Shown one piece after another: positions 10,231-26,251 of a stretch of DNA of 64,000 bases. Made by a program: the position numbers and the translations under genes. The stretch is from NCBI GenBank assembly GCA_022821645.1, contig JAJEDE010000019.1:41862-105861 (forward strand). Reading direction: 5' to 3'. A model generated the notes under the pieces. It saw nothing but the letters and a program-made list of their open reading frames with translations. It did no database searches and was not told the DNA's origin. This DNA comes from Chloroflexota bacterium. GTDB lineage: Bacteria; Chloroflexota; UBA11872. Position 1 is the first letter of the stretch. Each line of letters starts with the position of its first letter.

Positions 10231-11478
10231 TCACGCGAGCAAGTCGTTCAAGATCTTGCCCACCAGGTAGTGCTTCCGGTCCGGATACCACCAGATGGTT
10301 CGTCCCTCGTGCTCCAGCAGGCTGCCGTAGGTCGCGACCTGGGTGTGACCTTCCGGCGGCAGTTCCACCCCGTCGTTGTCCGCCAGCACCCGCGGCTCGC
10401 TGAACGCCAGCGGCTGCCCCTCCGCCGACTCGCGCACCGTCCCGATGCTGAACCACGCCGGCCGCCGGTTCCGCTTCGAGTCGTGCGGCCCCTCGCCCCC
10501 GTGCGCCGTCCCCACGTTGTTGTGAAAGATCAGCAGGTAGCGCCCATCGCTCAGCCGGTACAGGGGACACGGCGATATCGGGTGTGGCACCGGCCGCCCG
10601 TCCGAGGCGAACCGCAGCACCTCCGCGTCCGACCACGTCTCTCCCGCGTCCTCCGACACCGACCACCACGCATACCCCGTCAACGTCCGCAGCAGGCAGA
10701 TCATCCGCCCGTCCGGCAGATTCTGGATCGCCGGCTCCTGCGCAATGCTGTGCTCCGGATCCCCCGGCTTCGGCACCCGGATCCCGTGCGGCGACTTCGG
10801 CCAGGTGCTCACCCGCAGTCGCTCCGGATCGGCCTCCGTCAGGATGTTCTCGAACCGCAGGAACCAGCACTCCGAGTGCCGCTGAAACAGGTGTGGCTCC
10901 ACGTGGTACTCGGTACTCGCCCAGCGCGTGAACCCGCACACCACCTCGCCCTGCGGATTCAGGATCGGCGTCTGGTAGCAGATCCAGTTCTCCGGCGTGC
11001 CAGGGTCCGTCGGACTGATCGCCGAGCGCTCGATGGGCAGGCTCAGCCGCTCGCTCCAGGTCGCCCCCTCATCGTCCGAATACTTGTACGCCAGCAGCCC
11101 CGTCGTGTCCTCGCGCACGTCCACCACGCCGACATTCTTCGTATAGAACACGTACACCCGCCGCAATTCCGGCGCCAGCACCGGGAATCCCCACGAGGCA
11201 ATCCGTCCGTCGTCGCCGCTCGGGCCGTCCACGACCCGAGGCTCGCTCCACGTCACCCCGGCGTCGTCGCTGCGCGCAAACACCACCCGCTGGTCCGGCT
11301 TGCCCTCAAAGGTCGCCATCGTCCACACCGCCAGGAACGCCCCGCTCCATGACCGCACCACCAGGAAGTGCTGGTTCGTCCAGTCGTTGGCCGCCCCGCC
11401 CCGTGGTACGTACGCCACGTAGTCCGGCGACGTCCGCAGTACGTCCTCGCCATACGACGACAGGTCCGAAGCGCTCAA
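10231..11478 (-). CDS. Exo-sialidase / BNR-repeat family protein
   Basis: 415 aa with Asp-box-like motifs (SDDAGVTWSEP, SDDEGATWSERL, SEDAGETWSDAEVL). Confidence 0.85.
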   Translation of the reverse strand: MSASDLSSYGEDVLRTSPDYVAYVPRGGAANDWTNQHFLVVRSWSGAFLAVWTMATFEGKPDQRVVFARSDDAGVTWSEPRVVDGPSGDDGRIASWGFPVLAPELRRVYVFYTKNVGVVDVREDTTGLLAYKYSDDEGATWSERLSLPIERSAISPTDPGTPENWICYQTPILNPQGEVVCGFTRWASTEYHVEPHLFQRHSECWFLRFENILTEADPERLRVSTWPKSPHGIRVPKPGDPEHSIAQEPAIQNLPDGRMICLLRTLTGYAWWSVSEDAGETWSDAEVLRFASDGRPVPHPISPCPLYRLSDGRYLLIFHNNVGTAHGGEGPHDSKRNRRPAWFSIGTVRESAEGQPLAFSEPRVLADNDGVELPPEGHTQVATYGSLLEHEGRTIWWYPDRKHYLVGKILNDLLA

Positions 11479-11488
11479 AGACTGCCCC

Positions 11489-13609
11489 TCATTCCTCCGT
11501 GCAATGCACCACCGCTACGTCCCACTGCGGAATCACCAACTCGAACCCGTTGTCCTCAACCTCGATTGCGCAACCCGTCAGCAGGTCCATCGCCCCGCCA
11601 ATCCGCTCCCGCGTCCGCAACCGGCACTGAGCCTCAGCCCGCTCTACGTTGAACACGAAGACCAGCCACCCGCCCAGCCGCGACCGCCGCACGATCGGAA
11701 CGGCCCGGTCGCCCTCCATCGCCACCAGCGGCGTCACGCCCGCCTCTTGCGCCAGCCCCCGAACCAGGTCCGGCTGCCCCAAATCCCCGAACCCCGCCGA
11801 TAGCGTCAACCCGTACCACGTAAACCGCCCGTCCGCGCTCCGCACCGCTACCGCCTGACCCTCCAGCGACGCGATTCCCCGCGTATCCCCCAGCGGCTCC
11901 AGCACCGCGTACCCGCACGGCGAGGTAATCGCCACCGGCCCACACGGCGTCTCCAGCACGTTCCGCCCCTGCTCGATGTCATACGCCGTGACCGCCGACA
12001 CGTCCGCCACCCGCACGCCCAATTCCTCGGCCAGCCCGTCCGGCGGCCCGTAGCTCGACTGCCCGTCCGCCGAGTACATCCCGAAGCTGCCTTCGGCCAC
12101 CAGTCGCGGCCCTTCGGAGTCAGCCAGCGTCCGCCGCACGTTCTCCCGCGTCGCCTCGTCCATCAGCGCCACGTTCGGCAGGAACAGTTGCCAGTATCCC
12201 GACCAGTCCATCCGCGGCGAGACCACGTCCGGCGTCAACCCCTGCGTCCACAACGCCCGGTACGTCCCCCGCATGTCCGCCAGGAACCGGTCGTCCTCGT
12301 CGTTGTAGTCGAACATCTCCTGCGATTCGGGGTGATAGACGACGCCCACCTCCGCCTGCGGGCATTTCAGCGGCAGGTGCTCGCTCAGCCCTTCGATCTG
12401 CTCGGTCGCCCGCGCCACCGCCTCGAACCGCTCGGTCGGCTGCCCGTCCAGCGCCGCCAGGTTGTAGCCGGGCGACTCGAAGCTCATGTACTCCGGCCGG
12501 TACTGCCAGAACATCGCCCCCGCCGCCCCGCAGGCCAGCGTCATCCACAGCAGCGTTGTCAATTCGCGCGGGTCCGCCTGCTTCTTCCAGGTCACCCCGC
12601 CCGGCGACATCCCCGCGTAGATCTCCTCGTTCCACCAGCGCCCGTGCTTCCCCGCGCTCCGCGACCAGTCGAAGCTGAACGCCCGGTCCGCGATCTGGTA
12701 CGGGTCCTCCACCGTCAACAGGTTGCTTGAGGGCATCGACATCCCCCAGCTGTCCGCCACCGCCGCGCAGCGCTCGTCCCACGGCCGCGGATACCACGCC
12801 CCATGCGTCCGCGTCTCGTGCACCGGGTCCAGCCGCTTCGTCTCGTCGATCATCCACCGCAGGTGGCCCGCCAGGTTCTCGTAGTGAAACTGCCGGTACA
12901 GCAGCATCTCCACCAGGCTCGCGTTCGAACGCGGCGGCTCCACGTCCTCCCAGCGCCGGAAGCGACGCAGCAACCGTTCGTTCAACTCGTCCAGCGTGAA
13001 CCGTTCCCGCAGCCAATTCTCGTAGCGAGCCAGGGTGTGCGGGCAGTAACACGGCAGCCCGTCCGTCTGCCGGCTGAACGCCGACGAGATCGCAATCCCG
13101 TCCCACAACCCCCAGATCAGCAAGCTCGGCCGATCCCGGTACCGCGTTACCACGTGCTCGATCAACGCTCCGCCGAACTGCCGCCACAGCGGATGGTCGT
13201 AACAGTGAATCTGCGACCCCTGCGGCATCGCCGCGCTGGCCACCGGCGTCGCCGCCCGGCCCCGCTGGTTGACCACCCGCATGTCCGGGAAGTCGCGCGT
13301 CATCCACTCCGGCCCCGCCCCATGCGTCGCCAGCGCCATGTCCAGCCAGACGTAGAGGTCGTGCTTCTCGGCCAGGTCGAACAGCCGGTCGAATTCGTCC
13401 AGTTCGTACTGACCCGGTCGCGGCTCCATCCAGTTCCACATCGTGAAACTGCGCACGATCCGCATTCCCGAAGCCCGGATCCGCCGCAGATCCTCGTCCC
13501 ACACCTCCGGCTTCGGCGTCGGCGCCCGGTAATACTCCACCCCCACCGGAAACGGAACCCCGGGGATCCCAAACCCCTCGTCGGCAGCCATGGAACGACT
13601 CGCCTCCAA
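11489..13609 (-). CDS. GH42-like beta-galactosidase family protein
   Basis: 706 aa; (V)EYYRAPTPKPEVWDEDLRRIRASGMRIVRSFTMWNWMEPRPGQYELDEFDRLFDLAEKHDLYVWL, AMFWQYRPEYMSFESPG. Confidence 0.8.
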   Translation of the reverse strand: MEASRSMAADEGFGIPGVPFPVGVEYYRAPTPKPEVWDEDLRRIRASGMRIVRSFTMWNWMEPRPGQYELDEFDRLFDLAEKHDLYVWLDMALATHGAGPEWMTRDFPDMRVVNQRGRAATPVASAAMPQGSQIHCYDHPLWRQFGGALIEHVVTRYRDRPSLLIWGLWDGIAISSAFSRQTDGLPCYCPHTLARYENWLRERFTLDELNERLLRRFRRWEDVEPPRSNASLVEMLLYRQFHYENLAGHLRWMIDETKRLDPVHETRTHGAWYPRPWDERCAAVADSWGMSMPSSNLLTVEDPYQIADRAFSFDWSRSAGKHGRWWNEEIYAGMSPGGVTWKKQADPRELTTLLWMTLACGAAGAMFWQYRPEYMSFESPGYNLAALDGQPTERFEAVARATEQIEGLSEHLPLKCPQAEVGVVYHPESQEMFDYNDEDDRFLADMRGTYRALWTQGLTPDVVSPRMDWSGYWQLFLPNVALMDEATRENVRRTLADSEGPRLVAEGSFGMYSADGQSSYGPPDGLAEELGVRVADVSAVTAYDIEQGRNVLETPCGPVAITSPCGYAVLEPLGDTRGIASLEGQAVAVRSADGRFTWYGLTLSAGFGDLGQPDLVRGLAQEAGVTPLVAMEGDRAVPIVRRSRLGGWLVFVFNVERAEAQCRLRTRERIGGAMDLLTGCAIEVEDNGFELVIPQWDVAVVHCTEE

Positions 13610-13623
13610 CTGGCCGTAAACCG

Positions 13624-13848
13624 CTACAGGGTCTGCGACGACTTGAACCGGCCCGCGCCGTCCTTCTCGGCGCCGGGGAAGTCGTAGCCGCCCGGCTTGC
13701 GTTTCCCCTCTTCGCCGCAGCCCGCCACAACCGCCAGCATGGCGCTACCAACAGCCAGCAACACCGCCAGCCGGCGTCTGGACAGCCGGCCGCCGGTCGC
13801 AGCCGGGTCGGCGTGAAGATCGGATGCCTTAAGCCGGTCAGGTGCCTT
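13624..13848 (-). CDS. Small Tat-type lipoprotein, YDFPGA family (paralog 1)
   Basis: ...GGRLSRRRLAVLLAVGSAMLAVVAGCGEEGKRKPGGYDFPGAEKDGAGRFKSSQTL; lipobox VAGC; 31 residues from Cys to C-terminus. Confidence 0.75.
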   Translation of the reverse strand, partial: KAPDRLKASDLHADPAATGGRLSRRRLAVLLAVGSAMLAVVAGCGEEGKRKPGGYDFPGAEKDGAGRFKSSQTL

Positions 13849-14066
13849 CATCTCTTCACTCCCGTGCGAGTGCGTGGGCAATCAGGTCGGCGTTCGGTGC
13901 ATGCACGTCGGACCCATCCATGCACCCCTGCGGCGACCTGACCGGGGCTGCACGGTCTACAGCGTACGCCGCTGGACATTGCGCATCCACGACCTCGCCC
14001 GACGAGCCGGATATAGTGGCTATTCGGGCTACGAAACATCGGCCCGTCACCCCGGGGGGCGCAGCC

Positions 14067-15113
14067 ATGCTCCGCGTTGGAATCATCGGGCTCGGCGGCA
14101 TCTCCCGGTCCCACGGCGACGCCATCGAAACTCTCCCCAACGTCGAAATCGTCGCCGCCGCCGACCTCCTCGAAGCCCCGCGTCAGGCCTTCTGCGACCG
14201 CTACGAAGTCCCCCGCGCCTATCCCAACCACCCTGAGCTTCTGAAGGACGACGAAGTCGACGCCGTCGCTGTCACCCTCGGCCACCAACTCCACCACCGC
14301 CTCACCGTCGACGCCCTCAACGCCGGCAAGCACGTGCTCGTCGAGAAGCCCATGGCCCTCTCGCTCGAGCAGTGCGACGAAATGATCGAGGCCGCCCGCC
14401 GCAACGGCGTCAAGCTCATGATCGGCCTCACCCAGCACTTTCTCGGTCCCAACATGAAGGCCAAAGAGATCCTCGACTCCGGCGAGCTTGGCCCCCTCAT
14501 CACCGTGGTCTGCTACTCCGTCAAGAACTGGGGCTACGCCAACCGCCGGCCCCAGTACCGCAGCCGCTTTCACGGCGGCGGCTACTGGATGACCAACGGC
14601 GTCCACATGGTCGACCGGCTCACCTGGCTCGTGGGCTCCCAGGCCGCTCGGGTCAAGGCCCGCATCGGAACCAAGAGCCACTACCAGGCCGGCGACGACT
14701 ACGGCGTCGCCTTCGTCGACTACAAGAGTGGCGTCCCCGGCATCGCCATCGCCATCGGCTACCGGGATGGTGCGCCGAACTACCAGTCCGAGATCATCTG
14801 CGCGAGGGGCGGAATCCGCATCAGCGGCTCGGGCGACCGGTTCGTCGCCGTCGGCCGGGGCAACGAGTGGACCCGCGTCCCCTTTGAGGATCCACCCGCC
14901 GGCATGACCGCGGAGTGGCACGCCTTCGCCCGCTCAATCGAGGAAGACCTGGAACCGCCAACCTCCGGAGAGTGGGGTCGCCACATCATGGAAATTCTCT
15001 TCGCCGCCGAACGCTCGTCCATCACCGGCCAGCAGGTCACGCTTGCCAGCGGAACTCACTACAACGTCCAGACCACCGGCCAGGTCGTCTCGCGGGACCA
15101 CGGCTGGATCTGA
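14067..15113 (+). CDS. Gfo/Idh/MocA family oxidoreductase
   Basis: MLRVGIIGLGGISRSHGDAIETLPNVEIVAAADL Rossmann start; NAGKHVLVEKPMALSLEQCDEMI. Confidence 0.92.
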   Translation: MLRVGIIGLGGISRSHGDAIETLPNVEIVAAADLLEAPRQAFCDRYEVPRAYPNHPELLKDDEVDAVAVTLGHQLHHRLTVDALNAGKHVLVEKPMALSLEQCDEMIEAARRNGVKLMIGLTQHFLGPNMKAKEILDSGELGPLITVVCYSVKNWGYANRRPQYRSRFHGGGYWMTNGVHMVDRLTWLVGSQAARVKARIGTKSHYQAGDDYGVAFVDYKSGVPGIAIAIGYRDGAPNYQSEIICARGGIRISGSGDRFVAVGRGNEWTRVPFEDPPAGMTAEWHAFARSIEEDLEPPTSGEWGRHIMEILFAAERSSITGQQVTLASGTHYNVQTTGQVVSRDHGWI

Positions 15114-15114
15114 C

Positions 15115-15324
15115 ATGCGCCCACCAGCCGTCGGTCATTTCAAGTCACGCTCTTCCGGCCAACTCCCCCGCCGCCGCTTCATGGTCGTGCTCGCCGCCTC
15201 CGCCGCCAGCCTCGTCACCCTGGCCGGTTGTGGAGGCGAGAAGAAGCTCACCCGCGACAGCTACGACTTCCCTGGCTCCAGGAAAGACAGCACCGGCAAC
15301 TACCAGATGCGCAACGCTCAATAG
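15115..15324 (+). CDS. Small Tat-type lipoprotein, YDFPGA family (paralog 2)
   Basis: ...GQLPRRRFMVVLAASAASLVTLAGCGGEKKLTRDSYDFPGSRKDSTGNYQMRNAQ; lipobox LAGC; 31 residues after cleavage. Confidence 0.75.
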   Translation: MRPPAVGHFKSRSSGQLPRRRFMVVLAASAASLVTLAGCGGEKKLTRDSYDFPGSRKDSTGNYQMRNAQ

Positions 15325-15453
15325 CGGCGTCCGTGAGCCGCTCAAGTGCACCTATCGGCCTCAACGCCAACCCTTTCTCGTTCTGCGGCCAGTACATTAG
15401 GCTCAGTAACCACCTCCTGCCTCGCCGCAGCATTCACGCGCTGGAGTGATTGA

Positions 15454-15678
15454 ATGACCGTGCCCGCTCAGCGAACCGTGTCCACCCGTCACGCCGGACT
15501 GGCTTCCGAAAGTCGCTTGTCCCGTCGCCGGCTCATCGTCCTGCTCGCCGCGTCGGCCAGCGCAATGGCCGCCGTGGCCGCGTGTGGCGGGGAAGAGAAA
15601 CTCACCCGCGACAAATACTCATTCCCCGGCGCCGAGAAAGACGCCCAGGGCAACTTCAAGATGCAAACCTTCCGCTAG
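15454..15678 (+). CDS. Small Tat-type lipoprotein, YDFPGA family (paralog 3)
   Basis: ...SRLSRRRLIVLLAASASAMAAVAACGGEEKLTRDKYSFPGAEKDAQGNFKMQTFR; lipobox VAAC; 31 residues after cleavage. Confidence 0.75.
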   Translation: MTVPAQRTVSTRHAGLASESRLSRRRLIVLLAASASAMAAVAACGGEEKLTRDKYSFPGAEKDAQGNFKMQTFR

Positions 15679-15806: not shown

Positions 15807-17453
<1,647 letters not shown>

Positions 17454-19054: not shown

Positions 19055-20578
19055 TTGACCACGCATCACCCAACTGAATCCACCCACCCACCCGCGGCCT
19101 GGCGCGTCCTCACCCGCCGCCGCGCTCTGGGTCTGGCCGTCGCTGCCGGTGCCGGCGCCCTCGCCGCTGCCTGCGGCGAACCTGACATCCCCACCATCCA
19201 GCCCCCCGTGCTTCCGTCCACCCAACGCACCCAGGCCGTCGCCACCCAGGGCGCCGAAACCGCCGCCACGCCCCCACCCACCGTCATCGTCACCGCCGGC
19301 GACCGCGCCCCCAGCCGCGAGGGCAGCCTCCCCCAGGCCGGCGCCGACCGCCCCATCTCCATCGCCCTGCCCACCTTCGCCGGGGGCAACTGGGACGTCG
19401 AGCCCATCCTTCTCTCGGCCGAAGTCGCTGCCCGTCAGGACACCGACTCCCGCTACAAGTACTCCCGCACCCCCCTGCCCTCCAACTTCGGCTACCGCTG
19501 GGACTACGCCTCAACCGTGGACGACGGCTCCGGCAACTCTCGCACCGACCTCGTCATGCTCGAGCAGTGGGACCTCGCCAACCTCGTTGCTGGCAACAAG
19601 CTCCTGCCTCTCGACGAACACCTCACCAGCGACTCCACCTTCAATCCCGGCGCCTACTGGCCCGGCATCCTCGAGACCGGCAAGGTCGAAGGCGTCCAAT
19701 ACGCCCTCCCCGTCGCCGCTGCCCCCTGGATCACCATCGTCAACCGCGACCTCGCCGCCGCCGCCGACTACCAGATCCCGCCCCGCAGCGCCTGGGACGG
19801 CCAGGCCTTCATCGAAGCCGCCCTCGCCATGCACGGCGACCCCGAGGTCCCCGGCGGCAGCGACGCCCTCGGCCTCCTCCTCAACGTCGAACCCATGTGG
19901 GGCGCCCCCGACCAGCTGTGGAGCTGGACCCCCAGCTTCCTCTTCCTTCAGTCCGCGTTAGGCGCCCTCCCCGACAGCCAGGGCACCTTCGCCCCCTTGC
20001 GCTCGGACCCCGCAAAGGCCATTGCCGAGACCTACTACGACCTCGCCACCACCTACGGCCTCGCCGAGAGTGCACAGAACAGTAGCGGCACCCTCTGGTA
20101 CCGCTACACCCAGGGCCAGATCGCCATGCTCATCATGTCCCTCGGCGGCCTCAGCTTCGGCTGGATGACCCGCAGCGCCGGCCCTGACAACGTGCTGTAT
20201 CCCTTCCCCCGCTTCGGCTCCGGCGGCGCCCCCGTCAGCGTCTGGATGATGATGGGCATCGGCAACGGCACCCAGGAACCCAAAGTCGCCTACGACGCCC
20301 TCCGCGCCCTCGACCGCAACACCCAGCGCGTCGCCAACGTCCCCGCCCAGCGCCTGGAGCCCGACCAACTCCAGCGCCTCTTCGCCAGCTACAGCGACGA
20401 AGCCGCCCAGATGGTCGTTGACATAATGCAAACCGCCAACTACGTCACCATCGACCGACCCCAATGGGGCGCCTTCGTCAACCAACTCGACGCCGGCATC
20501 ATCCGCGACGACCTCTCCGCCAACGAAGCCCTCACCAACCTCACCCACCGCTTGGAAGAGCTAGGCGCGAAGGTCTAG
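19055..20578 (+). CDS. Extracellular solute-binding lipoprotein (family 1-like)
   Basis: 507 aa; LTRRRALGLAVAAGAGALAAACGEPDIP (Tat-like + lipobox) and solute-binding body. Confidence 0.8.
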   Translation: MTTHHPTESTHPPAAWRVLTRRRALGLAVAAGAGALAAACGEPDIPTIQPPVLPSTQRTQAVATQGAETAATPPPTVIVTAGDRAPSREGSLPQAGADRPISIALPTFAGGNWDVEPILLSAEVAARQDTDSRYKYSRTPLPSNFGYRWDYASTVDDGSGNSRTDLVMLEQWDLANLVAGNKLLPLDEHLTSDSTFNPGAYWPGILETGKVEGVQYALPVAAAPWITIVNRDLAAAADYQIPPRSAWDGQAFIEAALAMHGDPEVPGGSDALGLLLNVEPMWGAPDQLWSWTPSFLFLQSALGALPDSQGTFAPLRSDPAKAIAETYYDLATTYGLAESAQNSSGTLWYRYTQGQIAMLIMSLGGLSFGWMTRSAGPDNVLYPFPRFGSGGAPVSVWMMMGIGNGTQEPKVAYDALRALDRNTQRVANVPAQRLEPDQLQRLFASYSDEAAQMVVDIMQTANYVTIDRPQWGAFVNQLDAGIIRDDLSANEALTNLTHRLEELGAKV

Positions 20579-20690
20579 CCTGGGGCGGGCCCTGAATTGA
20601 TCGCGATGTCTGGATCGTAGACCGGGGCCGGCGCTCCGCTACACTTTCCGGCGCCGTCAAATCGGACACTCCAATCGAGACCTGATCCGC

Positions 20691-21515
20691 GTGCGCACAC
20701 GTTCTTTACCAGGAGCCGCCGGCGCGCTGATCGTCGCAATTCTGGCCGTCGCAGCCGCGCTTATGGTCATTCGTCAGCCATTCGCTGTCATCTATCCGCC
20801 GCCCGAGTTGCGCAGCTTTGAAATGGTGCCCACCGCCATTGCGTTTCCGGCGTTCTATGCCGGACCAATTCAGGCCGGCAATGTCGTGGATCAAGAGTTG
20901 CGATTGTCGCCGGACGACGGGGCTGTCCGCGTGTGGCTCGGCCCGGCTCAGGTCGGGGTGTTGACGCGCGCACGGATTGAACTGCTGGATAGTCCTCGTG
21001 GCCCCAGCCGTCGGTCAGGCGTTCTGGATCTCCAGGGTCAATCTGGACCCGTAACAGCTCGTATCGTGCCGCCGCTTCGTCCATCGGAGGTCGGCGACGA
21101 TGGGGTTGCCGTACTGCGCGTCGCACCGGTCGAAGGATCGCAGGCCATTCGTGTGGGAATGGCGAAGGGTAAGACGTACCGTCCGGGCCGCGCCTTTATC
21201 GTCGGCCAGGCGGCGCCCGAGGATCAAGACGTGATGTTCGAAGTCGCGCGGGAATTATCGCCCGGCGGCGTTTGGTCCGTGATCTGGTCGCAGATCGAAA
21301 GTGAGACCCTTGCCGTTCGCGCCGTGGCGGCGGCCGCGCCGATTGTCCTGGTCGCGGGCCTGGCTACGTGTGTGACTGGACCGGGTCGACGCCGACGCTC
21401 CGCCCTCCTGACGTTTCTTGTGGCGCTGGCGGCCGCGACGCTCGTCGTGGTTGACCGTACAACCCTGAGCCTGATGCCGGGGCCAGACTTTAATCCAACC
21501 GTATTCCTCCGCTAA
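20691..21515 (+). CDS. Membrane protein A1 (paralog of 24070..24894)
   Basis: N-terminal TM, (F)(A/S)VIYP..ELRS motif, VGMAKGKTY, two C-terminal TM segments; shares PDF(N/G)PTV(F/I)LR end with paralog. Confidence 0.7.
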   Translation: MRTRSLPGAAGALIVAILAVAAALMVIRQPFAVIYPPPELRSFEMVPTAIAFPAFYAGPIQAGNVVDQELRLSPDDGAVRVWLGPAQVGVLTRARIELLDSPRGPSRRSGVLDLQGQSGPVTARIVPPLRPSEVGDDGVAVLRVAPVEGSQAIRVGMAKGKTYRPGRAFIVGQAAPEDQDVMFEVARELSPGGVWSVIWSQIESETLAVRAVAAAAPIVLVAGLATCVTGPGRRRRSALLTFLVALAAATLVVVDRTTLSLMPGPDFNPTVFLR

Positions 21516-21518
21516 TCC

Positions 21519-22808
21519 ATGAGCGGACAGGCGTACCTGCTGCTTGTTTTTGTCTGCGCCCTATGGCTCGGCGTTCGCGCCGCAACACAGCCGGCTTTGC
21601 ACGATTTCGATGAACATTCGCACTTGCTAACAGTGGCCCAGGTTCGCCAGTTCGGTGGAATGCCACCTGCAAGTCTCGCGCAAGACTTGATCTTTAGCCG
21701 CGAAAGAAACGAGGTCACCTACCATCACTTCCAACCTACGCCGTACTTGGTCATGGCGGGTCTCACGTCAATGGCCCGCACCGAACCATCCACGGCCGGA
21801 GTATTGGGCATTGGGCGCGCCCTGTCAGCTTTACTTGCCCTAAGCGCGGTAACGGCAGCCGGGATCGCCGTACGCAACTTACAGCGCTCAGGCTCCGACT
21901 GGCGGGCACCGGCGGTTGTAACGGCTGGGATGTCGCTCATGCCGGCGGTCCATTCGTTGGGCGCAAGTGTGACAGCAAGCACCTGGGCTCTGTCCGCCGT
22001 GGCGCTGACGACTGTTGCAACAACGTGGGCCGTTCGCCGAAATTGGTCACCGTGGTCGAGCATGGCAGTCGCCGCGGCGGCCGCGTTTACCTTGGCGGTT
22101 CGAGCCAGCGCATATCCGATTCTCTTGCTGATTCCGTTGGCCATGATCGAGTCGCGGCTGAGCGCCCTGGAGATAGCCCGAAAGCTCGTCGCGATCACGG
22201 CACTCAGTCTGGCGGTCAACGGTTGGTGGATCATTCGCAGCATCCTGGTAAATGATGATTGGCTTGGAGCTTCGGTGCATGTGCACGCTCACGTCGAGGG
22301 TGGTTATCTGGAGACAGTTCGAGAAGCTGTTTTGTGGCGCGAGGTAAGTCTCGATCCGTGGCCCATATGGTCGCTCTTGACTTCGACGGATTGGCTCTGG
22401 CTGACGCTCTCGCGGATTCTCAGTCGCGGCTTATGGCTCCACCGAATTGAATGGGTCGATCCTGTCACGATAGCACTGTGGATTGGTATGGTCGTGGCGC
22501 CTACGTCAGCAGTCTTAATCCACCGTCTGAGTCGTGCGAAGGAATCCCGTCGTTCATTTATCTACCTGATGCTGTTGGGTGGATTGATTATGACGTCAGT
22601 AAGCCTGTACAGCGCCGCAAATCTCTCGGCTCAACTTGGTTGGTTTGCACACATACGCGACACATTCATCGTTTCGTTGCCGGTAGTTGTGGCGTTGGCC
22701 GTCTTGGCGGATGAGCGTCAGGATACGCTCCGTGATATCTGCTTTCTGTCCGGCATCGGGTTCGCCTGTGCGGCAAATGCAGGATTCGTCCTGCTCATGC
22801 TTCCATAA
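21519..22808 (+). CDS. Multi-pass membrane protein B1 (possibly DUF2142/GT-C-like)
   Basis: 429 aa; LGVRAATQPALHDFDEHSHLLTVAQVRQFGG, ASVTASTWALSAVALTTVATTWAVRR, NGWWIIRSILVN; paralogs at 22943 and 24899. Confidence 0.7.
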   Translation: MSGQAYLLLVFVCALWLGVRAATQPALHDFDEHSHLLTVAQVRQFGGMPPASLAQDLIFSRERNEVTYHHFQPTPYLVMAGLTSMARTEPSTAGVLGIGRALSALLALSAVTAAGIAVRNLQRSGSDWRAPAVVTAGMSLMPAVHSLGASVTASTWALSAVALTTVATTWAVRRNWSPWSSMAVAAAAAFTLAVRASAYPILLLIPLAMIESRLSALEIARKLVAITALSLAVNGWWIIRSILVNDDWLGASVHVHAHVEGGYLETVREAVLWREVSLDPWPIWSLLTSTDWLWLTLSRILSRGLWLHRIEWVDPVTIALWIGMVVAPTSAVLIHRLSRAKESRRSFIYLMLLGGLIMTSVSLYSAANLSAQLGWFAHIRDTFIVSLPVVVALAVLADERQDTLRDICFLSGIGFACAANAGFVLLMLP

Positions 22809-22942
22809 AGGTCTCGGCTACCAATGGTGAGTCTGATTGCACGGACCCTTGCGGCAAGCTATAGAGTGACGAATGCAACGCACGGTTGGGTCGCTCAGGC
22901 GCGGAGCCAGCGGTCATTAGACCGGCGTCTCAAGTCAGTCGC

Positions 22943-23906
22943 ATGACTCAACGAGGCTACCTTTTCACGTTGCTCCTCTGCACCGTCTGGCTCGGCGCGC
23001 GCGCAGCCACACAACCGCCAGGCTTTGACTTCGATGAGCAGGCTCACCTGGGAACTATCGCCGAAATGCGTCAATTCGGCGGCCTGGCGCCAGCCGACGC
23101 GTTTCCGGACATCATCGTCAATCCCCAGACTGTCGAACCGCGCTTTCACATGTTTCCGTCCTTGCCGTACTTGGCAGTGACAGGTGCAACGGCTGTTGTC
23201 CAGACGAACCCCACCAAGGACGGCGTATTGGGCATCGGGCGTGCTTTCGCTGCACTCATGGCACTCCTAACGGTCCTGTCGGTTGGACTCGCCGTACGCA
23301 ACCTGCAGCAGCCCGGCTCAAGCTGGAGTGTTCCGGCGCTCGCAACGCTCGGCTTGGCCCTCACCCCAGGGGTGCACTCCATGGGCGCCAGCGTGACCGC
23401 AAGCACCTGGGCGCTGGCTGCCGTAGGCATGACCTGCGCCGCGACGTCCTGGGCGGTACGCCGTGACTGGTCACTTAGCGCCACCTCGGCCGTGGTAGTC
23501 GTTGCAGTTTTCGTGGTGGCATCCCGTGCAAGCGCCTATCCCTCGCTTCTGCTCATCCCACCCGCAAATGTTCGCCTCTCGAATCTCGCTCAAGGCCGCC
23601 GTTCTGCGGCTGGGCGCGGTAGGAGCGGCCATCATTCTGGTAAACGGCTGGTGGATGGTCCGCAACGTCCCCGCCCAGCGCCTGGAGCCCGACCAACTCC
23701 AGCGCCTCCTCGCCAGCTACAGCGACGAAGCCGCCCAGATGGTCGTTGACATAATGCAAACTGCCAACTACGTCACCATCGACCGACCCCAGTGGGGCGC
23801 CTTCGTCAACCAACTCGACGCCGGCATCATCCGCGACGAACTCTCCGCCAACGAAGCCCTCACCAACCTCACCCAGCGCCTCGAAGAACTCGGTGCCCAG
23901 GTCTAA
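22943..23906 (+). pseudogene. B2: truncated, frameshifted B-type membrane gene fused to the 3' end of a solute-binding-protein gene
   Basis: B-type N-terminus (MTQRGYLFTLLLCTVWLGARAATQPPGFDFDEQAHLGTIAEMRQFGG) breaks frame near 23565-23580; other frame continues SRISLKAAVLRL...NGWWMVRN then NVPAQRLEPDQLQRLLASYSDEAAQMV...LEELGAQV, matching the C-terminus of 19055..20578. Confidence 0.85.
23666..23903 (+). repeat. Second copy of solute-binding-protein 3' end (homologous to ~20338-20575)
   Basis: About 240 nt nearly identical to 20338-20575, roughly a dozen differences by eye, frame preserved. Confidence 0.9.
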
Positions 23907-24069
23907 GGCACTTCTTGGCGGGCCCCCATGCCTATCGGGTTCCCTCGCATCTGCGCGTTCCCTTGCTCGCTGGTTCTATGGCGCCTACCGCCCGGCCAGG
24001 AACTCAGTTCAACACTGGCGCTCCGCTAGACTTCTCGGCGTCCAGGTAGTCGCAGGAAACTAGCGTCGC

Positions 24070-24894
24070 GTGCGGATGATTTCCGTGTCGGGAGTTGCGG
24101 GCGCCCTGGTCATTGCAATCGCCGTCGCCTGCGCCGTCCTAGTTGTAATCCGTCAGCCGTTCAGTGTCATCTATCCGGCATCCGAGCTACGCAGCTACGA
24201 CTCTCTTCCGACTGTGATTGCTTTCCCGGCATTTCGTGGCGGTCCCATTCCGGCCGGCCGAGTAGCGGACCAGGAGATTCGTCTGACCGAAAGTGACGTG
24301 GCCATCAGGCTCTGGATGGGCCCGGCTGCGGAAGGCGCTGACGCCAAACTAAGGATCGAGCTACTCGCTGGACCGCAGGGACCAAGTCTCAGGTCGGGAG
24401 TCCTTGATTTGCCCGATCGCTCTGGCCCCATCGTCGCCCGCATCGTCCCACCGCTGAGTCAGTCTGATCTCCCGGGTCAGCGCGGAGTCATTCTTCGCAT
24501 CGCCCCTCTCGCCGAGTCCGAACCGATTCTTGTGGGAATGGCGTTGGGCAAAGCCTATCCAGAGGGTCGGACGTCCTTGAATGGGGATGCTCTGCCCAGT
24601 GATCAGGCCTTCATGTTCGAAGTCGCTCGAAAGTTGTCGCCCCTCGACGTGTGGCACCGTACATGGACATTGGTAGACAGCCAGACGCTTCCCTTGCGTG
24701 CTGCGGCGGTAGCTACGGCCGTCCTACTCGCTGCGGGCCTTGCTATGGCGATCGAAGTGCCGGGTAGCCGCATTCGCACTGCAATTGGCGTGGCCGTCGT
24801 TGCCGTGGTCGCGATAGTCATTGTCCTGATAGACCGAACGAGCATCAGCTTGTTTCCTGGCCCTGACTTCGGCCCGACCGTGATTCTCCGCTGA
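24070..24894 (+). CDS. Membrane protein A2 (paralog of 20691..21515)
   Basis: 274 aa, same length and layout as A1; FSVIYPASELRSYDSLPTVIAFPAFRGGPIPAGRVADQEIRL. Confidence 0.7.
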   Translation: MRMISVSGVAGALVIAIAVACAVLVVIRQPFSVIYPASELRSYDSLPTVIAFPAFRGGPIPAGRVADQEIRLTESDVAIRLWMGPAAEGADAKLRIELLAGPQGPSLRSGVLDLPDRSGPIVARIVPPLSQSDLPGQRGVILRIAPLAESEPILVGMALGKAYPEGRTSLNGDALPSDQAFMFEVARKLSPLDVWHRTWTLVDSQTLPLRAAAVATAVLLAAGLAMAIEVPGSRIRTAIGVAVVAVVAIVIVLIDRTSISLFPGPDFGPTVILR

Positions 24895-24898
24895 GATC

Positions 24899-26251
24899 AT
24901 GACCCGCGGCGGATACATTCTGTTGGTCGTGCTGTGTGCCGTTTGGCTGGGTACACGTGCCGCGACGCAGTGGGCGGGCTTCGATTACGACGAACCAGCA
25001 CATGTGGGCACGGTCGTTGAGGTCAGGGCGTTCGCAGGACTCGCGCCGGCAGATCGATTCCCGGAGATCATCGTAAATCCTCAGACCGTGGAACCGCGAT
25101 TTCACATGTTTCCGCCGCTGCCGTATCTGCTGATGGCTGGGGCCACATCCGCAATGCAGAGCGACCAACGAGCAGTTGCCGCGATCCAGTTCAAGACCAT
25201 CCACGGCAAGGGCATCGCTGAAGCGGCGAGCGTCGACCCGGTGGCAACCTCGGTGTTACTGGTGTCGCGTGCGTTCTCGGCGCTCATGGCGCTTGTCGCC
25301 GTCACCTCGGCGGGATTGGCCGTGCGGGCTCTGCAACGTCCCGGATCCACCTGGACTGTGCCCGCAATTGTCACCGTGGGAATGTCGCTAATGCCCAGCG
25401 TCCACTCCATGGCCGCGAGCGTCACGGCGAGCACGTGGGCACTGGCGGCCGTTGGACTCGTGTGCGCGGCAACGGCCTGGGCCGTGCGATGCAACTGGTC
25501 TCGCGAAACAACAGCGGCCGTGGTTGCCGTGTCGGCCTTCGCCGTGGCGGTCCGCGCCAGCGCCTACCCCGCTTTGATACTGGTGCCACTGGCCATGCTT
25601 GTCTCGCGTCTCTCGATCCGGGCCTCTGTCATTCGGCTGGGGCTCATCGCCACTGCTGTCGCCGTGGCCAACGGCTGGTGGATCGTTCGCAACATCTTGG
25701 TGAACGGAGATCCTCTCGGGGCAAATATCTATCTCAGTACGGTGGCCGATGTCGCTGCCTGCGATATCGCACGCGAGAGTCACGTGTGGTGCGCGGCGGC
25801 GTCCGGCCCCTGGCCGGCTTGGACGCTGCTTACGTCCACCGATATCTTCTGGGTCTACCTTTCCAGGATGTTAGTACGAAGGACTTGGATTGACAGTCTC
25901 ACGTTGGTGCTCTGGGTTGGAATGGTAGTCCTTCCCGCAGTCTTGGTAGTTGCCGATCGATTCCGGCCCCGTCTCCGCGGATCACGATACGAGTTTGCCC
26001 AACTGATGGCCCTTAGCAGCGCCGGCATGGCGATGCTCGCATTCGTTCTCGCCGTAACCCTGGCTGGTCAAATCGGTTGGTATATCTACTCGCGCGACAC
26101 CTTCATCGCGCTGATCCCCCTCGTCATCGCCGTCGCCGCGCTCGCTGACCTCAGGCAGGATCGGCTTCGTACCATTTGCTTCGGATTGGGACTCGCCTTC
26201 GCTGCTGCCGCCAATGCCGGATTCATGCTCGCCGTTCTCCCAAACGTCTAG
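24899..26251 (+). CDS. Multi-pass membrane protein B3 (paralog of B1)
   Basis: 450 aa; LGTRAATQWAGFDYDEPAHVGTVVEVRAFAGL, SVTASTWALAAVGLVCAATAWAVR, NGWWIVRNILVNGD. Confidence 0.7.
   Translation: MTRGGYILLVVLCAVWLGTRAATQWAGFDYDEPAHVGTVVEVRAFAGLAPADRFPEIIVNPQTVEPRFHMFPPLPYLLMAGATSAMQSDQRAVAAIQFKTIHGKGIAEAASVDPVATSVLLVSRAFSALMALVAVTSAGLAVRALQRPGSTWTVPAIVTVGMSLMPSVHSMAASVTASTWALAAVGLVCAATAWAVRCNWSRETTAAVVAVSAFAVAVRASAYPALILVPLAMLVSRLSIRASVIRLGLIATAVAVANGWWIVRNILVNGDPLGANIYLSTVADVAACDIARESHVWCAAASGPWPAWTLLTSTDIFWVYLSRMLVRRTWIDSLTLVLWVGMVVLPAVLVVADRFRPRLRGSRYEFAQLMALSSAGMAMLAFVLAVTLAGQIGWYIYSRDTFIALIPLVIAVAALADLRQDRLRTICFGLGLAFAAAANAGFMLAVLPNV

Follow-up and report, generated by a model that had tools for sequence, protein, structure and literature searches.

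LptM is a lipoprotein of roughly 6 kDa that binds LptDE (PMC10567701). Among described systems, LptM (YifL; NF047847, PF13627) of the enterobacterial LPS translocon resembles the micro-lipoproteins reported here in being a very short lipoprotein; its function is the binding of a larger transport machine. It differs in belonging to the outer membrane of Gram-negative bacteria and in its single copy, whereas the Chloroflexota peptides occur as many paralogs, and the mature sequences show no similarity; the NF047847 profile gives a weak match to copy B in the signal and lipobox region only (13.7 bits, cut-off 27.7). The formate dehydrogenase region TAT target family (TIGR02811) likewise consists of short proteins with a twin-arginine (RR) signal encoded beside oxidoreductase genes. 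By comparison, no formate dehydrogenase is present at the micro-lipoprotein locus, and the TIGR02811 profile reaches 15.0 bits with copy A, confined to the signal region (residues 19–46) and below the cut-off of 48.45; to our knowledge, the TIGR02811 protein is not a lipoprotein. The Streptomyces tyrosinase and its caddie MelC1 are a known two-protein Tat export pair. MelC1 would share with the present peptides the property of a small exported protein carrying an enzyme partner if these act as caddies, but it is much longer, has its own fold and is not a lipoprotein. Solute-binding lipoproteins of the SBP_bac_1 family (SBPs; PF01547) carry the same kind of RR lipoprotein signal, occur in the same loci and presumably reside on the same membrane face. 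They differ in having a binding domain and a length of about 500 aa, whereas the micro-lipoproteins are domain-free and start their mature part differently.

Three micro-lipoprotein genes and their neighbors

The window analyzed here, a stretch of 64,000 nucleotides from a Chloroflexota bacterium, contains three short ORFs that encode micro-lipoproteins: copy C (subfamily C; 13624–13851, minus strand), copy B (15115–15324, plus strand) and copy A (15454–15678, plus strand), with gene limits corrected relative to the initial annotation. The signal peptide of C, GGRLSRRRLAVLLAVGSAMLAVVAG, is followed by the mature peptide CGEEGKRKPGGYDFPGAEKDGAGRFKSSQTL, and the mature peptides of B and A are CGGEKKLTRDSYDFPGSRKDSTGNYQMRNAQ and CGGEEKLTRDKYSFPGAEKDAQGNFKMQTFR, respectively. 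As the initial annotation had quoted, each mature peptide comprises 31 aa and aligns without gaps from the lipobox Cys, and the three share the motif Y-x-F-P-G-x-x-K-D-x-x-G. The start of C is preceded by GGGAG, with GGGAGTGAAGAG before its ATG, and GGAG precedes the ATG of A, so that a GGAG-type ribosome-binding sequence is found in both. The ATG of B follows the stop codon of the Gfo/Idh/MocA gene after a single base. The exact length of 31 aa, previously regarded as a family constant, did not hold: B and C measure 30 or 31 aa and the extra member F 33 aa, and more distant members range from 23 to 61 aa. We therefore dropped the notion of a strict length.

Each of the three copies carries an SRRR or PRRR lipoprotein signal peptide. 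Nearly all A, B and C orthologs show SRRR[LF] or PRRR[LF], in line with the Tat motif S/T-R-R-x-[FL], and in all of them a charge-free hydrophobic stretch precedes a lipobox of the form [LVI][ASTVI][GAS]C, present as VVAGC, LAGC or VAAC. The earlier proposal of a twin-arginine signal thus fits the S-R-R-x-L pattern, but it does not extend to some distant members, in which RR is absent. The SRRR motif suggests export through the Tat pathway, and the lipobox points to lipidation of the Cys, cleavage of the signal and a location on the outer face of the cytoplasmic membrane. AlphaFold2 predicts a helix in the signal peptide only (mean pLDDT 67, pTM 0.30), which suggests that the mature peptide is probably unstructured when alone and would act by binding.

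The neighbors reported previously, a GH42 gene, a Gfo/Idh/MocA gene and a Baeyer–Villiger monooxygenase gene, are confirmed by Pfam. The Gfo/Idh/MocA-family oxidoreductase (14067–15113, plus strand; PF01408, E 2.6e-30), in which no signal peptide was seen, is always encoded upstream of B. Downstream of A lies an FMO-like/Baeyer–Villiger-type monooxygenase gene (BVMO; 15807–17453, plus strand; PF00743), whose product also matches an NCBIfam pentalenolactone D synthase-like model below the cut-off. Downstream of C, a GH42-family protein (11489–13609; PF02449, E 6.2e-37) and a BNR-repeat (sialidase-like) protein (10231–11478; PF13088) are encoded in one gene string on the minus strand. All four assignments also rest on synteny. 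Further out in the window, Pfam recognizes BNR, M20 peptidase, YceI and SBP_bac_1 proteins, the nearest solute-binding lipoprotein (PF01547) being encoded at 19055–20578 on the plus strand.

The order Gfo–B–A–BVMO on one strand is found in 11 of the 11 genomes with the cluster, which is split over two contigs in G008 and G012. In G008, G009 and G011, A and BVMO are separated by one extra gene of ~750 aa that points the opposite way (L078:6380-8638, L075, L076). C is divergent and is usually followed by GH42–BNR–M20. Three genomes (G005, G006 and G008) contain the extra members D, E, F and G together with an SBP gene, arranged as F–SBP–G–Gfo–D–E, with F and G flanking the SBP gene within one operon; G011 has only D of these. 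GH42 does not adjoin C in G005, G010 and G012, and in G005 C sits inside the operon. Because the C peptide keeps its character where GH42 is elsewhere, C is not simply a GH42 helper, and its reading as the dedicated partner of GH42, which it outlives or leaves, was ruled out. By the same evidence, and because other members adjoin different genes, an exclusive tie to the three neighboring enzymes is not supported. Between E and C in G005 lies a decayed extra copy, GGYDLPGARQGGSGTYQL, with an early stop (L071:4119-4181; G005:C31), which indicates that copies also get lost.

Conservation and selection within the genus

With a profile built from the three copies, 10 other genomes of the genus matched strongly, and the A/B/C cluster is present in 11 of its 13 genomes. 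Homologs outside the locus, on which the initial annotation had made its claim depend, therefore exist: the wider family occurs in the 12 other genomes and the cluster in 10 of them, with one stop-containing fragment as the sole wider-family match in G003 (76% complete). Codon comparison of orthologs (A, 11 genomes; B, 10 distinct sequences; C, 11 genomes) gave pN/pS values of 0.29, 0.08 and 0.20 for the mature parts of A, B and C, respectively, and of 0.37, 0.57 and 0.50 for their signal parts, a contrast that is large in B and C and modest in A. By this measure, purifying selection acts on the mature parts, and more strongly so than on the signal peptides. The mature peptides of B are near-invariant, paralog-specific residues are fixed, and the stop positions of A, B and C are fixed across 11 genomes. 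Since A, B and C form separate ortholog groups, the duplications predate the spread of these species. Consistent with the initial suggestion of a real, constrained family, the recurrence in 11 of 13 genomes, the conserved order and the mature pN/pS of 0.08–0.29 make it almost certain that A, B and C are genuine lipopeptides under constraint. The home assembly (3.55 Mb, 28 contigs) has an estimated contamination of 7%, which is immaterial to the finding because the same cluster occurs in other assemblies.

A wider family confined to the genus

Searches with mature-only profiles revealed further divergent members across the genus, the member counts being those of profile searches and of the stretches around their matches. 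A longer form has the consensus GGYxFPxxRPxxxxYISxEERxKLxxQ and about 49–57 mature residues. Longer-form or further members of the home genome are located at C24:206288, C24:206540, C17:88864 and C20:5569, together with three members on C27, which carry PTPFAFP or PTPYSFP, and another three on C28. Looser kin without FP include a tandem group on C17 (CGGDFDYKISGDR...) and CEASDEFEYMK... on C12; the inclusion of the loosest members, which was decided by architecture and a C-terminal motif in common, is less certain. A search with the DNA pattern TGCGG...TWYNNNTTYCC performed overall no better than its reversed control, and in-frame reading of its matches gave a pointer to one further member on C27.

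The mature profile A2 matched only within the genus among 41 genomes of the class and had no match outside the genus among 399 Chloroflexota genomes across the phylum. In the same 399 genomes, profile A3 matched a single time, and weakly, in each of seven genomes from outside the genus (E 2e-4 to 0.01). None of these matches convinced us, as they lay in a long ORF, were partial or were stop-interrupted. Matches with named records were to Chloroflexi MAGs, and the one search that reached other phyla gave four non-Chloroflexi matches, all weak, with E values of 1e-6 to 7e-5 that are relative to the candidates only. Within the genomes searched, these profiles thus place the family in this genus alone. 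No curated Pfam or NCBIfam family scored above its cut-off for A, B or C, the best NCBIfam matches covering mainly the signal region and falling far below the cut-off, and our search of the literature found no description of the family. We regard it as a new small-lipoprotein family whose multi-copy, locus-linked arrangement is unusual. ORFs of this size readily escape annotation, so a multi-copy, strongly selected family can stay invisible in genome tables.

Linkage to solute-binding proteins

The home genome contains 20 SBP_bac_1 matches, 92 Gfo/Idh/MocA proteins, 32 sulfatases and 32 ABC permease domains. Eight of the 11 member loci in this genome have an SBP gene no more than about 5 kb away (binomial P 4e-8, with SBP surroundings as 6.5% of the genome and with some sampling bias). 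Without the two loci that came from reading flanking sequence, the figure is 6 of 9, with P about 5e-6 by the same formula, calculated by hand. No SBP is found near the member loci on C24, on C22 and at C1:238966. Unrelated-looking members immediately follow an SBP gene, in the same orientation, at L175, L177, L153, L149 and L082. In the home genome and in the stretches of relatives that were read, SBPs adjoining members have no permease gene nearby; at C12, permeases lie ~9 kb away beside another SBP. A member-like gene is also found 4 kb from the permease-linked SBP C1:222060.

In the SBP tree, 14 SBPs without an adjacent permease form one clade (local support 0.87), nine of which adjoin members, and the permease-linked SBPs fall outside this orphan-SBP clade. 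The contrast between members beside orphan and permease-linked SBPs is not significant alone (P 0.15). These data show the micro-lipoproteins, on comparative genomic grounds, as old paralogs that have been kept distinct and that recur, within glycan-catabolic loci, next to permease-less SBPs of one clade. A scan of the flanks of the other SBPs did not bear out the notion that every SBP has a micro-lipoprotein, as several orphan SBPs are without one. The window's own SBP (19055–20578) lies outside the orphan-SBP clade, and the window contains no permease gene; the proposed partner at this locus is thus missing or elsewhere. Three genomes of a sister genus have neither a close relative of the window's SBP (at E 1e-30) nor the lipoproteins. 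The SBPs of the genome also carry RR lipoprotein signals, and their mature parts start quite differently, with CGETQVVEK.

Proposed role and alternative explanations

Of the three roles offered by the initial annotation, the most fitting is that of an accessory subunit of an envelope complex, given the repeated position of the family beside permease-less SBPs. As the recurring neighbor class is a permease-less SBP, our best guess, held tentatively, is that the micro-lipoproteins are docking or accessory peptides for orphan SBPs and glycan-catabolic systems. The genus-specific peptides would be exported with the SRRR (Tat-type) lipoprotein signal peptide and, after lipidation of the Cys and signal cleavage, would leave a tail of roughly 30–57 residues on the outer face of the cytoplasmic membrane. 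The Y-x-F-P segment, together with EERxxLQ in longer members, may then bind an orphan SBP or its shared permease, so that the peptide would serve uptake as a docking or accessory element, much as LptM binds and steadies LptDE; paralogs within one locus might serve different partners or states. The precedent of LptM indicates that a lipoprotein this short can work by binding a transport machine. In a bolder form, which we consider unlikely, the lipid-anchored docking peptides would be a class not described before and would let an expanded set of permease-less SBPs share few ABC permeases in a modular glycan-uptake surface of sponge-associated Chloroflexota.

A less specific role is also conceivable but improbable, namely that of generic small surface lipoproteins for envelope spacing, charge or membrane stability, carried along in operons and free of any specific partner. 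The mostly charged and turn-forming composition, the mature part without a predicted fold and the wide length range outside the A/B/C groups would suit such a role. By comparison, the near-invariance of B, the fixed paralog-specific residues and the non-random genomic placement argue for specific contacts.

We consider it quite unlikely that the micro-lipoprotein is a Tat caddie that binds an adjacent folded cytosolic enzyme (Gfo/Idh/MocA, BVMO, GH42 or a sulfatase), escorts it through the Tat pore and keeps it anchored on the outside. So short a peptide would have no need to fold before its export, and its Tat-type SRRR signal would find an explanation here, as would the lack of a visible signal peptide, by eye, in the neighboring enzymes and the constant adjacency of B and A to Gfo and BVMO. 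Yet the same Y-x-F-P core occurs beside quite different enzymes, C is conserved in the three genomes in which GH42 no longer adjoins it (G005, G010 and G012), and some looser members lack the twin arginine. In addition, the RR signals of the genome's SBPs suggest that RR may be a mere habit of the genus.

Another reading is a lipopeptide signal, with the whole mature peptide or part of it acting on other cells or the sponge host. The peptides are short, putatively lipidated, strongly conserved and multi-copy, and the genus is presumed to be sponge-associated from the bin codes of the matching MAGs. Against this reading, which we regard as very unlikely, the flanking genes included no dedicated protease, exporter or receptor, and the placement of the peptide genes follows catabolic genes. 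Known lipoprotein-derived pheromones come from the signal part, which here is the more variable one, and a pheromone released from the signal peptide, also suggested initially, is therefore disfavored. An origin as chance ORFs or truncated starts of larger lipoproteins, to which the very short ORFs, the missing curated family match and the decayed copy in G005 might have pointed, has a negligible probability and is already ruled out by purifying selection on the mature parts, stops fixed over 11 genomes, conserved order and the quite different mature start (CGETQVVEK) of the genome's SBPs.

Sponge Chloroflexi are reported to show expanded carbohydrate uptake and arylsulfatase enrichment, and a massively expanded carbohydrate-degradation repertoire is described for these sponge symbionts (PMC6306507); the expanded uptake and the arylsulfatases fit the surroundings of the micro-lipoprotein genes. 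If the link with permease-less SBPs is true, it bears on how bacteria with more SBPs than permeases connect both, and it would offer a handle on glycan uptake by Chloroflexota sponge symbionts.

Additional observations at related loci

The orphan SBP_bac_1 clade, represented in G000 at C15:44864, C26:159, C28:171748, C22:139345 and C12:71221, is apparently expanded in the genus. Within the window, the SBP gene and the two following membrane-type genes, which have no Pfam match, appear partly duplicated (19055–26251): near 23658, a segment ~94% identical to part of the SBP at 19055 is followed by second copies of both neighbors (clusters 15 and 12). At least four genes for short lipoproteins of another type (CGGDFDYKISGDR... 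or CGGDFEYKTSGDR...) stand in tandem between an SBP gene and a sulfatase gene at L082:1245-2543 (G000:C17:80245-81543); the array is kept in relatives (L150, L151, L152 and L149). At L085:10017-10088 (G000:C1:239017), a lipoprotein with a mature part of 23 residues, CGGEEKKSGSFKMHKTIGDGPGM, and the same kind of signal peptide is encoded; it adjoins a chromosomal comM-like ATPase gene and not catabolic genes, and may be an outlier of the family.
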